A DNA stretch of 64,000 nt from contig OZ020270.1 of NCBI GenBank assembly GCA_963971225.1, positions 19,577,488-19,641,487 of the forward strand, in the 5' to 3' direction. The number at the start of each line of letters is the position of its first letter. Position 1 is the first letter of the stretch. Below the pieces are notes generated by a model. It searched no databases and was not told where the DNA came from. It saw only the letters and a program-made list of their open reading frames with translations. This document shows, piece after piece, positions 38,918 through 60,415 of this stretch. Origin of the DNA: Melieria omissa. Its lineage: Eukaryota; Arthropoda; Insecta; Diptera; Ulidiidae. Made by a program: the position numbers and the translations under genes.

Positions 38918-39950
38918 TGGATTCTTCGAACGAGTATAAAAGACATATTTTGAATTTTTTTTATAAAAGTGGAAAAAATGCAACAACTGCTGCTGCAGAA
39001 ATAAATGCAGCTCATTGGGAGAATGTCGTGAGTGTAAGGACTGCGAAAAAGTGGTTTTCAAAATTCCGAAGTGGCGATTGTGAGGTTTAGGATGCCCCAC
39101 GCTCTAGTCGCCCTGAGGTCCTTAAGTCCACGCCTTGCTGGAACTCGTGGAAGCAGAGCCAAGTTGGACAATCAATATGATAGCTGGAAAGTTAAATTCA
39201 TCCCATGAAACAGTTTACAGGCACCTGGTTCAATTGGGCAAGGTACCAAAGCTTGGAAAATGGGTTCCGCATAAACTTCCAGTCGCAAAGAGTGTGAATA
39301 CAGCAGAGAGTGAATATGTGTTCTCAGCTGCTGCAGGGCTTAGAAATGCGAGTTTTTTGAACCGTATTGTTACTGTGGATGAAAAATGGGTCCTTTACAA
39401 CAATCTTGTTGGCAAACGCGAGTGGTTAGATAAGGTGAATCACCAGAACCACCTCCAGAGATGGCCTTCACCCCTTTCTCTTCTTATTCTCTTGCTTATT
39501 TGGTGGAATGTGACCGGTATCGTTTATTTTGATCTGCTGGAACCAAACCAGACGATCACAGCTGATTATTATTGCCATCAACTATCCAAATTGAATGAAG
39601 CACTTGCAAAAAATCGACCGTCTTTAGCCAATAGACGCAAAGTTTTGTTTCACTATGACAACGAAAGACTGCATAATGCAAGACAGACCTTAGGCAAGCT
39701 GATTGAGCAAGGATGGGAGCTAATGTCGCATCCACCATACTCTCCGGATATTACACCTTGCGATTATCACGTTTTCCGCGGACTTCAGTTCCATATGAGT
39801 AATAAGAGCTACACCTCAAAAGAAGCTATCAAAACGGATATCGACGCGTATTTTGACTCCAAGGACAAACAATTCTTTTAGCAGGGAATTCAAAATTTAC
39901 CCAAACATTGGGAAGATATTGTAAATAATGCAGGCAAATATATCACTACA
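38918..39950 (+). pseudogene. Mariner transposase, nearly full-length but broken
   Basis: From the ATG at 38918 the helix-turn-helix region runs (NEYKRHILNFFYKSGKN, RTAKKWFSKFRSGD) to an in-frame TAG at 39088-39090, then DAPRSSRPE. A frameshift near 39135 moves to an ORF to 39881 with TVDEKWVLYNN, FHYDNERLHNA and YSPDITPCDYHVF, the three Asp blocks of a DD34D mariner. A possible terminal repeat is near 38850; the right one is not identified. The N-terminal stop and the shift disable it. Confidence 0.85.
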
Positions 39951-43078: not shown

Positions 43079-43086
43079 CTGCACAT

Positions 43087-46000
43087 TAGGCTGGAGTGAA
43101 AATGTCAAAAAAAAAATTTTTTTGGAATATCAATTAGCTAGATATCTCAAAATGTGCCAATACATCAATATAAAGCTGTGTAAAAATTAAAAAGAAATTA
43201 AACAATTTTTTGATCTCCCATCGCAGCATTTAATTTCACAGTATTACGCGACATTAAAGATAGTCATCTTAAAATTCAATTAAAAATCAAATACGCTTTT
43301 AATTACAATATTTAATGATGTCAAAGTTATAAATACATGGTTACAGGGTGAAGTGACAAAAATCACGTTTCGACTCGAACGCCGGCATTTGCTGACGAGA
43401 AGCAATGCGTGCACGGATGAACCCATCTCGCGATTTTTGTCCACAGACCGCTATCGCCGCCTCGGTCACCAGCTTTACGTGTCTTTCAACTGCTTGTGTG
43501 TGGTAGGGGAACTTTGGAAAGATGACAGTTGGAGTCACCTCTGTCGTGATGAGATCCGTGAGCTCAGCGTCTGTCATGGCTTTGATGACGGTAGGTTCCG
43601 AAATAGGGCAGACTGCCCAGTCAATCATGTCGAAGTATTCCACGGCGTCGAAGTTAAGTTTTGCAGGAACCTTGAACCTCCGTATTTGTCCACTGGGGAC
43701 TGCTGTAGCTCTGGCCTTCATCACTCGTCGTAAGCCCAGTTCACGTATATGTGGTCGATGGTCCGTCATCATGGCCAGGAGCACATTCTCCGGGTGAGCA
43801 AAGTACGCGTTACGGTGAATAACGGGGTCAACGATTCCCTTGAGTTTGGAGCTGAGGTAACGTGACTTGACGAGCATCTGGTGAATGTGCCTAGCTCCCT
43901 CTTTGCATGATGGCTGGGATTTTATGCTAAACCACATCGGAGCATACACGCGAATGATAAACGTTACCAAAGTCTTCAGATTCCTGGACGGTTTCTTGTC
44001 GCTGACATACAATCGGAGGATTCGATTGGCCGTCGTTAGCCATCGTGAATGATTCAGGCACCCAGGGTTCCGCACTGCCAGATCGAGGCTACATTCACCT
44101 TTGCTGATGCTATTGCATATTTCCAGAAGATACCGCTGATCTGTGCTCAACTCATTTGGGTTCACATTGGAGAGTTGTTCGGTCAGTTTTACTGGCTGAA
44201 ATGAGGAGACAGGCTGTTCGCTACATGTCATTAGCCGCTTTCCGATAGATCCAGAGAATCCGTGTGGGCCTGTCGTCCCGCCATCGAGTGACTGGAATAG
44301 ATTACGCAAGGGCAGCTCATTGGCATGGAGTAGACATATCAGCCACTGCAGCGGTCTCTCCAGTGTTTCTTCCAGTCGCCGGATAACGCCCGATTTTTGT
44401 CCCGTGTTTACGTTTGTGCCGTCACACCCGACAACTTTAATATTATCTGTCTTCGCATTTCGCTCTTTGAAACTAGCGACTAATGACTCAGCTATGTCTT
44501 TGCTGCAGCCTGATGGCGGAGACGTATGGTTGAAGTACGAAGAACCCGGCTCTGCGACGATGGTTATGTGTTCTTCCGATATGGTTTTTCTGTGGTACTT
44601 GTTGTCGACGGCGAGGACTTGTGTTAAAGTTTTATCCTTGCGGCCATCAAAAAATAGTCCATCTATGCCCTTGTGAGTGTGGTCGTCTTCATTCTGCCTC
44701 AGTTCCTTTCGAAGTTTACTGCGTTCTCGACGGATTTTGCTTCGGTCGATTACTTTGGATCGGTCGTTGGGTGATACGAGACCAAGATCATGCAGAACTG
44801 ATGTTGCTAATACAGCAGCCGATCTGTCCGAAACTCCGGTCCGATCGCAAGCTATAGCGAGGGAAGGTAGAGAGATAGTCATATTTTGGCACTCGCGATC
44901 CTGATTTGGCTTAGTTTTGAGTGATTCTCTATCTGGGATGTAATTATCGACAGTGGCACTGTCAAACGAGTCCGTGTCGTATTCGGAACTTTCGGCAGAA
45001 TAGGGTTGACTTTTGCTCGCATCGTCATCGATCTTCTTAATCTTCATTCGTTTGAGATTTGCTTCCTCTCTTTCAGCTTTTCTCTTCAATTTTGATGTTA
45101 CCACTTGATCTGTACCACCGATTATCATCTTTCTTGGTCCTCTCTGGTCTTGAAGGAACTGCCGTTCGTTTGCCGGAATTTTGTTGTGTTTCGCACATTT
45201 GCAATTGGCCACCATATCGGAGCACTTGCATTTGCTGAGATCAAACAGAGTGTTAGCTTTGTCACGAAAGTCCGATAATCTTCGTTGGTAGTTTGGTTGC
45301 TTCTTTTTACCTTTGTTGACCTTTAGCATTGTGTTGTATTTGTCGTGGAACGATCTAAGTTTTTCTATCGCTTGTGCATGCGTTACTGTTGGAAGTGAGG
45401 CCCTTTGCCATATCTCTTCAACTTCATAGCACAGTTTGTGAGATATGTCAAAAAATGATGGGTATTTACCATTGCCCGTCTTCAGGTCTTGTGGAAGTTG
45501 AATATATTTCTTCATGAGATCGGTGTAGGTCGGCAGAGTATTGGTCGGCAGGTTTCGTGGAGCGCCAAATATCACGCACGAAACTTTGTCTCTTGTAACT
45601 GCCATCTCTTTAAAAATATAAAGAAATAACTAGTAACCCTTCACTGCCCCACGTTTTTGCGCACAAGTTCAGGTACTCACCTTTTTTTTTGTTTAACGTT
45701 TTTTGTTGTAACGTCACAAGTTTAATTCGAATCGGTCACTTCACAAGGAAATTGTCAACATTCAACAATCATAAACACAATAGAACTAGCGGGGTTTGCC
45801 ACATTCCAACGATTAAAACGCGAATTGTAATTTGTAATATTTTATTCGCTCAAACAGGACTGCTACAATAAATAACTTAAAAATCGCAAACCTAAAGCAA
45901 AGGCTACTGAGATTTATTTTGAATCCTTAACTGAGTTGAAATTACGCCTTTCACTTCTTTCGACAAAAGTGAAAAAAGTATTAAAAACAATTATTTCAAT

Positions 46001-46130
46001 TAGGTGATGGGCGATCAAGGAGTTGTTAGAAACTAATATAATTTTGCAGGATTGGTACTATGGGCATTTGGCACATTTCCAATATACTAGCTTCTAAAAA
46101 TTTTAAAATCGATTTTTTCACTCCACCCTA
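43087..46130 (-). mobile_element. Complete DNA transposon of an unassigned, hAT-like family
   Basis: The 3044-bp unit has terminal repeats TAGGCTGGAGTGAAAATGTC (left) and TAGGGTGGAGTGAAAAAATC (right, complement), and a perfect 8-bp target duplication CTGCACAT (43079-43086 and 46131-46138). One open frame of 754 codons fills it, with 254 bp after the stop and 525 bp before the ATG. The TAG tip and 8-bp duplication fit the hAT superfamily. No nested element or break is visible, unlike nearly everything around it. Confidence 0.85.
43341..45605 (-). CDS. Putative transposase, 754 aa, family not recognised
   Basis: Intact ORF from the ATG at 45605. Visible parts: a Cys/His cluster CKCSDMVANCKCAKH (residues 126-140), probably zinc-binding; a basic stretch (172-191); an acidic Ser-rich linker (199-220); then a conserved-looking core. 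Candidate RNase H-fold residues are D320 (LFFDG), D395 (GCDGTNVNTG) and E707 (QAVERHV). Between them are WLICLLHANELPLR (421-434), DGGTTGPHGFSGSIGK (441-456) and a hAT-like NHSRWLTTANRILRLY (518-533). I recall similar uncharacterised proteins in aphids, other arthropods and Hydra, but could not check. The catalytic assignment is inference. Its place between terminal repeats makes transposase by far the likeliest role. Confidence 0.75.
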   Translation of the reverse strand: MAVTRDKVSCVIFGAPRNLPTNTLPTYTDLMKKYIQLPQDLKTGNGKYPSFFDISHKLCYEVEEIWQRASLPTVTHAQAIEKLRSFHDKYNTMLKVNKGKKKQPNYQRRLSDFRDKANTLFDLSKCKCSDMVANCKCAKHNKIPANERQFLQDQRGPRKMIIGGTDQVVTSKLKRKAEREEANLKRMKIKKIDDDASKSQPYSAESSEYDTDSFDSATVDNYIPDRESLKTKPNQDRECQNMTISLPSLAIACDRTGVSDRSAAVLATSVLHDLGLVSPNDRSKVIDRSKIRRERSKLRKELRQNEDDHTHKGIDGLFFDGRKDKTLTQVLAVDNKYHRKTISEEHITIVAEPGSSYFNHTSPPSGCSKDIAESLVASFKERNAKTDNIKVVGCDGTNVNTGQKSGVIRRLEETLERPLQWLICLLHANELPLRNLFQSLDGGTTGPHGFSGSIGKRLMTCSEQPVSSFQPVKLTEQLSNVNPNELSTDQRYLLEICNSISKGECSLDLAVRNPGCLNHSRWLTTANRILRLYVSDKKPSRNLKTLVTFIIRVYAPMWFSIKSQPSCKEGARHIHQMLVKSRYLSSKLKGIVDPVIHRNAYFAHPENVLLAMMTDHRPHIRELGLRRVMKARATAVPSGQIRRFKVPAKLNFDAVEYFDMIDWAVCPISEPTVIKAMTDAELTDLITTEVTPTVIFPKFPYHTQAVERHVKLVTEAAIAVCGQKSRDGFIRARIASRQQMPAFESKRDFCHFTL

Positions 46131-46138
46131 CTGCACAT

Positions 46139-56961: not shown

Positions 56962-59570
56962 CCCTCGCATTAGCGGATGTTTCGGTTACCTTCGGTTTAG
57001 CGGATGGTGTCTGGCCAGACCCCTATGCATTCGCATGTATTTATATGGGAATAATGGGTTTTTAATGGTGTGTTCTAAGCCATTTTTCGACCTGCTGAAC
57101 ACATATTTTGAGTTCCTTACCTACCCATTCGTGTAGGACAAATCCTCAATAAGCTGTAAAAGTAAAAATATGACCTGGGAATTTCCGATTTGTAAAGAAA
57201 AACGCATTTTCGTTGAAATTTTTTTTCCTTTATTTTCTATGTGTGCATGTTGTTTGAAGCATATAACATGGGTTTACAATATATTTTATGATGAAGGGAA
57301 AAAGTTATGAGTTCTGGCTGCATGAAAAACAGGTATACTCGACCTTTGAATGTTGTTGGCAAACTGGTAGGGCGCATTTCGAACAATAAAAACGAGTTTT
57401 GCGACCAAGCTTTTCGCATCCTTGTAAACAAAGACGGCAGTCTCGTTTGCTGGAAAGTGTATCAGCTTCTTTGTGTAGCCACAACATTTGTTGGAATATG
57501 GAGTGGTCTGCCAAAGAATGCTTCAACAGCTGAACGAACATGAAAATGCTTGATACAATGAACATTGTTCATGCGATCTTCGACGTTTTGAAGCACCAGT
57601 GTATCGGAGAGCGTTTGGAGAAATTTTCGTCTTGCGTCTTTTTTATTGTTGTTATCATTCTCCTTACATATGCAATAGCTTGCCAGTGCCATAACATCGA
57701 GCATATTGAAAAAAAAAGCCAAAGTCCAGCGTCGTGTTGGCCGCTTCAGAGAGAAACCAAATTTTCGTGGAAGCCGAAAATAGACGATAGAACAGGACGA
57801 GAAGACTTCTTTCTGCACTGTTCAGGTAAAAATGGTTTGTTCGCTCGTACAGTGCCAAAGTATGCAAGACCAAGAGAAGCCAATCGCTTTGCTCCATTCA
57901 ACGTTGTGAAAAAGTTATCGGCTACGATCGTTCGACCGCTATTCGAATATCGACCAGATAAGGCGAAAATGTATTGCCTTGATTTGTCTCGCGCTGTCCT
58001 CCATCGGCTTTTCCCGTGTATAGCTTTCCTTGCAGAGGGTATTTTGTCTTTGAATCGCATGCCCACCACACTTTGATACCATATTTTGCTGGTTTAGATG
58101 GGATGAATTGTGTAAATTTTGTTCGGCCGCGATTTGGAAATAGTTGCTCGTCGATAGTTATATTTTCGTGCGGATCGTAGTTTTTGGCGAGATTTTCATT
58201 CAAATAATTCCAAATGTCTCGAATAGGAGCGGCTTTATCGGTTTGTTGACGAAATGCACGCGTGCGACTATCATCAAACCGAATGAATCGTAAGATTGCA
58301 ATGAAACGATTATATGACATAGCTGCACGAAATATCGGAAGAGCATTCATACGCCACAACTCTGCGGCCTTTTGCGTATTGTTATGCGAAAGTCCAGCAG
58401 CGAAAAGAATACCAATGAATGCATTGAGCTCGGTGCTGGTCACATCTTGCCACTCTAGTGGTTTGGCTGAGCCGGAATTTTCTTCGTTGAATTTGCGAAC
58501 GAACTCTCTTGCATGTCGATTTGTTTCGGTTATGATGATGAAAGAAATATTTTCAGTAAAAAATTTCTTGAATACCTCGACCGGAATGGAGTTGTCATCC
58601 TTCGGTCCAGATTCGAATCGCATCAAATTGTGTTGACGGACACGAGTAGCTGCATTCGCCTCCGCTTTTTCCCATTTGGTGCCATCTTTCCCGTACAAAC
58701 AGGCTTCGGTTTCTTCTGGGCCAACATCTTGTCTCTCTCCTTCTGCATCATCATCGCTTTCAAAATTTTCATTCGGCTCAATCACTAAATCGTCCTCAAT
58801 GTCTGATGCGTCTTCGTTTGGCATGTATGCACTTCCATCGTCTTCAAATGGACGATCTTCTTCTTCTTCATCATCGGATCCGTTGCCAAAATCCATCATC
58901 AATGCATTGGCCAAACGATCGTGAAAATCGGGAGTTATGCCTCTTCCACGCAATCGCGTATTATACACAAATTCCACTTCGTCACTCATCTTTCACACAA
59001 AAAATTTATTTTATTAGGCGTAACAAATATATTCTCGCAGTAATGAGTATGTGTTTCCTTCAACGTCCACCAGACAACTGAAGCGTAGAATAGGTGGCAG
59101 TGAAGACGAAAGCAATCCAAACACAAGAAAAGATACAGAAAAAAAACCCAACATACACATAAGCGCGCGTGTTTATGTGCGTATTTGTATGTGTCCGTGC
59201 ATGTGTGCGTGTGTGTGCGTGGGTGTACATACTAACATGTAAGTCAGCTTCGCATATATGAGCACGGAAGTATATATTTACAATGAAAAATGCAAAAAAA
59301 AAAGATAAAAGGCTCAAATTGCATGTATTTCCATACAAAATGTATAGGGGTCTGGCCAGACACCATCCGCTAAACCGAAGGGGTAATTTCTAAAAATCCT
59401 TTTTTCTCCTATTGCAAGGACTTTTTTCATAAGGATATATGTATAGATCGAAAGAGAATAAAATTTTAGGAAGCTACCGAGAAGGACAAGTCGCTATGTA
59501 AAATAGCTTCGTTACAATTTTCGAATGAAAATGAAAAAGGTCTGGCCAGACCCGTCCGCTAAAGCGAGGG
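56962..59570 (-). mobile_element. piggyBac element (2609 bp)
   Basis: TTAA at 56958-56961 and 59571-59574. The tips are CCCTCGCATTAGCGGATG and complement of CCCTCGCTTTAGCGGAC. GGTCTGGCCAGAC palindromes lie at 57009-57020, about 59350 and 59539-59552. Length and single large gene are typical of autonomous piggyBac, but the transposase is broken. Confidence 0.9.
57305..58989 (-). pseudogene. piggyBac transposase, frameshifted and missing a catalytic block
   Basis: The ATG at 58989 opens MSDEVEFVYN, an acidic N-terminus, then the DDE domain (NAFIGILFAAGL, YNRFIAILRFIRFDD, ITIDEQLFPNRGR with the first catalytic Asp, KPAKYGIKVWWACD). After ETNQG near 57995 the frame shifts; the next frame has GRTIVADNFFTTL (second Asp) and SSIFGFHENLVSL. 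It then joins directly to KRPTRRWTLAFFFNMLD, so the stretch that normally holds the third Asp is deleted. The Cys-rich C-terminus (CRLCLQGCEK...CSKCALPVC) survives. Inactive. Confidence 0.9.
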
Positions 59571-59765: not shown

Positions 59766-60415
59766 ATGTCGCAGTTTTTGACGATTCGCAAGAAAAAGCA
59801 CTATAATGGGCGAAAGGAATGCAAAACTGAAGACGAAAGCTATATCGCTTCAATCGTCAAAATGTCGAGTGGTTGGCTACATATTTTTTGGAAAATACAG
59901 GCGAAAAACGAGGTGGTGCGTTAACAGCGTTTGAAAAGATGAAATTGTTTCTGCGGAGAGTTTCCGATCCAGGCTATCAGAATAGCGTAGCAGAAGAGCT
60001 TGGAATTCATCAAACAACTGTGTGCAAAACTTTTAATTTGGTAATGACTGAAGTTTTGAAAAAAGCGCACGTGTGGATTAAATTTCCGAAGTCTGCTGCA
60101 GAAATGATTGTAGCTAAAAATGGATGGAGGGAAGCATACTATTTTCCAAATTGTATCGGTGTGATAGACTGCACACATGTGAGAGTTCCGAAATTAAAAG
60201 CATTTGGTAACGAGTACGTCAACAGAAAGGGATTTACAAGCGTAAACGTGCAGGCTACTTGTAATGAAAACGAAGTATTTACAAGTGTGGATTGCCAGTG
60301 GCCGGGCTCCGTGCATGACAGTCGAATTTTTAAAAATTCGGACATTTATCATGTACTTCAAAACTCAAAGCAACCGTTGACACATGCTCGTATGTTTTGC
60401 CTAGCAACGATCTAG
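59766..60415 (+). pseudogene. Harbinger (HARBI1-like) transposase, truncated
   Basis: The ATG at 59766 starts a short N-terminus; a frameshift near 59890 leads to NTGEKRGGALTAFEKMKLFL, a helix-turn-helix-like region (EELGIHQTTVCKTFN), then GVIDCTHVRVP and DCQWPGSVHDSRIF, the first two catalytic blocks of the DDE_Tnp_4 family. It ends at ARMFCLATI, before the third catalytic block, so about a third of the protein is missing. The second Harbinger protein (Myb/SANT type) is not seen. Confidence 0.85.

Follow-up and report, generated by a model that had tools for sequence, protein, structure and literature searches.

Target site duplications of 8 bp are a criterion for the hAT superfamily and for the KDZ group (Kyakuja, Dileera, and Zisupton) of DNA transposons, and they are also made by the P superfamily, which includes the P element and THAP9. 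Short terminal inverted repeats with TAG/CAG tips are a further criterion for hAT elements, and a BED zinc finger is common in them, although not universal; an RNase H-like fold with a helical insertion also belongs to the hAT pattern. In Hermes, a hAT transposase of the Ac type from the house fly, residues D180, D248, and E572 are the catalytic triad. Zisupton carries a cysteine-rich SWIM finger, and Pfam holds a KDZ model. According to the literature, hAT elements are 2.5–5 kb long (PMC3942097), the hAT target as described for Hermes is nTnnnnAn (PMC10368747), and Zisupton makes 8-bp target duplications (PMC12730594). PMC8230255 describes the order of elements in the RNase H fold and, for the P superfamily, a [C/D](2)H motif that follows the second D together with a large insertion that precedes the E.

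The locus described here lies in a window of 64,000 nucleotides from the fly Melieria omissa, whose genome of 490 Mb includes four large contigs of 79–156 Mb; unless stated otherwise, coordinates refer to this window. Positions 43087–46130 are a complete, apparently recently mobile cut-and-paste DNA transposon of an unplaced lineage, termed lineage A. The element is 3,044 bp long with its coding strand on the minus strand, and its extent is given by its ends, its duplication, and its copies elsewhere. Its 3′ end carries the terminal inverted repeat TAGGCTGGAGTGAAAA (43087–43102, plus strand) and its 5′ end carries TAGGGTGGAGTGAAAA (46115–46130, minus strand); the two repeats are 16 bp long, agree at 15 of 16 bases, and have the tips expected of hAT elements. 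The target site duplication CTGCACAT is read directly on the left (43079–43086) and again on the right (46131–46138) with 0 mismatches. Both the TAGG-type terminal repeats and the perfect 8-bp duplication had been proposed in a first-pass annotation of this DNA, and both hold. A near-copy of the terminal repeat, CAGGGTGAAGTGACAAA, is found at a subterminal position (43344–43360, plus strand), with three differences from the 5′ end. It is a possible extra transposase-binding site, and it overlaps the last codons of the open reading frame (ORF), so that candidate binding site and coding sequence share the same letters; no such near-copy was found in the lineage B or C element examined.

The element encodes a putative transposase of 754 amino acids in one ORF (43341–45605, minus strand) that contains no internal stop, as the first-pass annotation had stated. 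The Cys/His cluster noted there can be specified as CxCx6CxCxxH at residues 126–140 (C126, C128, C135, C137, and H140; 45186–45230, minus strand), a putative zinc- and DNA-binding motif. Its spacing is not that of a BED finger, and Pfam returned no BED match. Lineages B and C retain the four cysteines (CKCx5-7CKC) but not the histidine. Further along the protein, on the same strand, follow D320 in FFDGRKDKT (44646–44648) and D395 in GCDGTNVNTG (44421–44423), both conserved in lineages A, B, and C, the motif C424-L-L-H427 (44325–44336), the triplet S520-R521-W522 (44040–44048), a counterpart of the Hermes TRW motif at W319, and E707 in PYHTQAVER (43485–43487). The glutamate is kept in lineages A and B and in a piece of lineage C (L056:4240–4407). 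Because D320, D395, and E707 are kept in every lineage that covers them and stand in motif settings like those of Hermes, they are good candidates for the active site. The proposal that these residues form it thus finds backing in conservation and in the Hermes-like motifs, whereas the structure models, with a mean pLDDT of 40.8 and 37.8, were too poor to reveal whether the protein has an RNase H fold that brings the three residues together.

Copies of the element are abundant in the same genome. A protein search gave at least 60 matches, with 59 of 939 candidates scored, and among the matches listed 20 span residues 1–754 at 98–100% identity, 19 of which are free of stops. The eight full-length copies that were fetched (3,044–3,052 bp) lie 1–45 substitutions and a few gap columns apart. 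On re-translation, seven of them show a single terminal stop and differ by 0 to 9 amino acids; the eighth (L006) has an open frame according to the genome protein search. Among these eight copies, 27 sites vary in 2,262 coding bases versus 30 in about 790 others, and the variable coding sites fall on the three codon positions as 10, 7, and 10, with no excess at the third. The earlier suggestion that the element was probably recently active is supported by the near-identical open copies and their 8-bp duplications, and the genome search for identical copies that had been called for found matches to the whole protein at 98–100% identity. Ends of this kind with an 8-bp duplication are found again at other insertions, and chance, as an explanation of the repeat-flanked structure, is ruled out by the copies elsewhere in the genome. 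A host gene was also considered and rejected, as the ends and the copy number speak against it.

Internally deleted derivatives were found through a genome scan for CDGTxxNTG with at most one mismatch, which gave 216 places (111 on one strand and 105 on the other) versus 0 and 5 for the reversed-pattern control. Thirty of the 216 places were made into loci and comprise one full-length lineage A copy, two deletion types with 19 and 8 loci, one lineage B copy, and one lineage C copy. The first deletion type lacks element bases 1758–2244 and 2487–2711, and its 19 copies have 19 different right flanks. In the older type bases 292–1156 and 2624–2789 are missing, each gap being visible in seven of the eight loci, and the remaining pieces are about 86–97% identical to lineage A. 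Among the loci L025–L054, two types of derivative have been amplified, one of them in an older and more diverged burst. Because internally deleted copies have spread, the ends appear to be mobilised in trans.

Perfect 8-bp duplications flank 34 of the 35 insertions with both ends read, the window copy included. The main set contributes 28 of 29 (20 insertions of lineage A, seven of B, and two of C), and the older deletion type contributes six of six, the copies tested being those of the eight loci in which neither end was lacking. For the lineage B and C copies L055–L058, the ends were chosen by searching for an 8-bp duplication, one mismatch being the most allowed, and the alignment of L057 with L058 stops no more than a few bases from these ends. 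The single imperfect duplication belongs to L065, the middle one of three full-length copies spaced exactly 7,407 bp apart (G000:C4:43153981–43172000; L008, L063–L066). This copy has one flank from each neighbour, as expected from unequal crossing-over between two insertions. A target consensus of nTGtaCAn emerges from 24 distinct perfect duplications, with T at position 2 in 23, G at position 3 in 20, C at position 6 in 20, and A at position 7 in 22; the middle positions are weaker (T in 13 and A in 11). The hAT preference for T at the second and A at the seventh position is thus present in 23/24 and 22/24 duplications, respectively.

Two further lineages share the genome with lineage A. Lineage B (L057, L058) is 3,118 bp long, has an open ORF of 741 amino acids that is 45% identical to lineage A over 758 columns, and ends in TAGGGTGGAG[T/C]GAA. 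Lineage C (L055, L056) is about 4.7 kb long and 32–39% identical to lineage A in pieces. Its ends, TAAGGTGGGTCGC, differ from those of A and B and have long inverted end regions of about 660–700 bp, which are 96–97% identical between the two copies. Whereas A and B each have a single open ORF, the coding region of lineage C falls into at least three pieces, probably due to introns. The conserved skeleton of the three lineages reads CKC...CKC, FDG[RK], [GN]CDGT..NTG, CL.H.NELP, SRWLT, and P[YC]H[TS]QA.ER, where not all columns cover three lineages, the letters of lineage C being absent where its pieces break off.

Family libraries did not place the 754-amino-acid protein. Pfam returned no family at E ≤ 10, including the hAT dimerisation domain, BED, and THAP, and NCBIfam returned no match. 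With lineage B and two of the three lineage C pieces, Pfam gave weak unrelated hits or none, and no transposase for B. The hAT C-terminal dimerisation domain (PF05699) was not found at E ≤ 10, versus 1.6e-25 for the Hermes control. Besides that domain, the same library recognised four other pieces of transposons in the window. The window has 33 ORFs of at least 110 amino acids; these four were the others scanned, and all of them gave a transposase or THAP match: a mariner-type piece (39135–39881; Transposase_1), a piggyBac-type piece (57922–58989; DDE_Tnp_1_7), a Harbinger-type piece (59873–60415; DDE_Tnp_4), and a THAP-domain ORF (2051–2599; Pfam 1.8e-6). Near the latter, the ORF at 382–765 looks by eye like a P-type transposase remnant. 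A piece of the Hermes catalytic core also gave no Pfam hit at E ≤ 0.01, and because this piece was missed, the silence of Pfam over the catalytic core is weak evidence. The first-pass annotation had named a strong match to a known transposase family as the result that would remove the novelty; none was found in Pfam or NCBIfam, a result qualified by the Hermes core piece that Pfam also missed.

Searches for relatives elsewhere and structure prediction gave a similar picture. Among PDB sequences the best E values (0.56 and 0.31) belong to unrelated proteins. The AlphaFold models had a mean pLDDT of 40.8 (754 amino acids, four-row alignment) and 37.8 (181 amino acids, three-row alignment). In the shorter, low-confidence model the order after the first helix is b-b-b-a-b-a-b, in which D320 comes right behind strand 1 and D395 right behind strand 4; this agrees with the RNase H order described in PMC8230255 at a confidence too low to count. 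A Foldseek search with this model returned 256 matches with E ≤ 10, none of which reached E ≤ 0.001; CobE ranked first (0.087), and no conclusion is drawn from these matches. Viral contigs yielded no relative, the two candidate loci having tblastn E values of 2.8 or worse. Sixteen pattern hits in prokaryotic genomes were dismissed as chance, tblastn giving either no match or E values no better than 0.11, and plasmids and phages gave no match with protein B as the query. A bacterial or viral insert was accordingly rejected, there being no relatives in the viral, prokaryotic, plasmid, and phage collections. In the open-access literature, the motif strings of the element were absent from the papers searched, its terminal sequences gave only chance-looking strings among the matches listed, and topic searches found, among the papers listed, none on this transposon family.

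Comparison with Hermes was made directly, with its letters taken from PDB hits and its numbering computed in this analysis. D180, D248, W319, and E572 of Hermes sit in DLWTD, TDRGAN, TRWNST, and IPASSAASERTFS, respectively, and their counterparts in the element would be D320, D395, W522, and E707. As far as the letters go, the D-D-E, CxxH, RW, and ER motifs are present in hAT order, a comparison made after the fact. Shuffling the protein 20,000 times produced the complete set of motifs in order 0 times and a loose set seven times; these counts are descriptive only, the pattern having been written post hoc. Alignment by hhalign of an A/B/C profile, which excluded the third lineage C piece, with two Hermes pieces, the only hAT sequences compared, did not reach significance: P was 0.29 and 0.44, compared with 0.61 and 0.74 for reversed and 0.78 and 0.35 for crossed controls. 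The motifs were not lined up in the best local alignment of the D-D-RW part (P 0.29), and that of the ER part (P 0.44) places E707 on E572. Motifs and target behaviour together suggest homology to hAT, without support from sequence statistics.

The element, an autonomous transposon by this reading, works like a hAT transposon and probably descends from hAT stock, most likely as a deeply diverged branch of the hAT superfamily or as a sister to it. Membership is not established, and the element is not filed as a hAT member because neither the dimerisation domain nor significant similarity was found. The first-pass annotation had offered a deep hAT branch or a separate superfamily; the hAT-like character stands, and sequence profiles, which gave no significant match to Hermes, do not decide between the two. 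A separate DDE superfamily outside hAT, with the 8-bp cut and the TAG-type tips owed to remote descent or convergence, appears rather unlikely. The lack of a significant profile match to Hermes or to the Pfam hAT families would fit such a group, as would the cysteine cluster CKCx5-7CKC, which is not BED. The same cluster is shared by three lineages, down to 32% identity, in one genome, and the group is for this reason old and self-contained. However, the five landmarks in hAT order, the identical ER spacing, and the nT....An target would then all be coincidental or inherited from very far back, and since Pfam also missed the Hermes core piece, the absence of Pfam matches over the core says little. 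In its fullest form, held to be just as doubtful, this alternative would be an unmodelled superfamily sister to hAT with three lineages (two of them open), CKC...CKC recognition, a TGtaCA preference, and present activity.

Two described groups with 8-bp duplications have also to be weighed against descent from hAT stock. The cysteine-rich SWIM finger of Zisupton and its 8-bp target duplications (the latter according to PMC12730594) recall the element, but Pfam, the only route by which KDZ was compared, detected no similarity, with no match for A at E ≤ 10 and no transposase match for B, and membership of the KDZ group is very improbable. The P superfamily, the least probable source of all, duplicates 8 bp as well. 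C424-L-L-H427 corresponds to the [C/D](2)H motif that follows its second D, and the long stretch from the second D to the E corresponds to its large insertion before the E, both of them P features according to PMC8230255. Unlike P-type proteins, the 754-amino-acid protein has no detected THAP domain in the Pfam scan that finds one at 2054–2599 of the window.

For the favoured reading, descent from hAT stock, a mechanism can be proposed in which the 754-amino-acid protein would act as the transposase. The TAGG ends would be recognised by the CKC...CKC cluster, the subterminal repeat, or both. D320, D395, and E707 may make up a DDE active site. It would lie in an RNase H-like core that presumably contains a large insertion between the second and the third of these residues. 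Cutting would occur at the TAGG tips by DDE chemistry, and the ends would be joined across an 8-bp stagger at TGtaCA-like target sites.

Because no Pfam or NCBIfam model matches, elements of this kind are likely annotated as uncharacterised host proteins. Having several open and near-identical copies, the element is a convenient candidate where a transposon is wanted that is naturally active and has a fairly defined target. So diverged a transposase would also help in rooting the hAT tree and in working out how hAT is related to the P and KDZ groups. Related families are, we suspect, already in Repbase under hAT; if so, the value is reduced to that of a new, apparently active member.

In detail, Hermes and the element differ in the spacing of the acidic residues, with 68 residues between the two aspartates in Hermes versus 75 here and 324 versus 312 from aspartate to glutamate. 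The spacing is not alike throughout, because the distance from tryptophan to glutamate is 185 residues here versus 253 in Hermes. Both proteins have [ST]RWx[ST]T...L in common, and P-x6-ER occurs at identical spacing, with the proline seven residues before the glutamate; here PCHSQATERF of lineage C is nearer to PASSAASERT of Hermes than lineage A is. The length of 3.04 kb fits the 2.5–5 kb given for hAT elements in PMC3942097. Unlike hAT elements of the Ac type such as Hermes, this element has a CKC...CKC cluster and a narrower target, nTGtaCAn, and it is like them in its 8-bp nTnnnnAn duplications, its short imperfect terminal repeats, its size of about 3 kb, and the order of its landmarks, D, D, CxxH, RW, and P-x6-ER.
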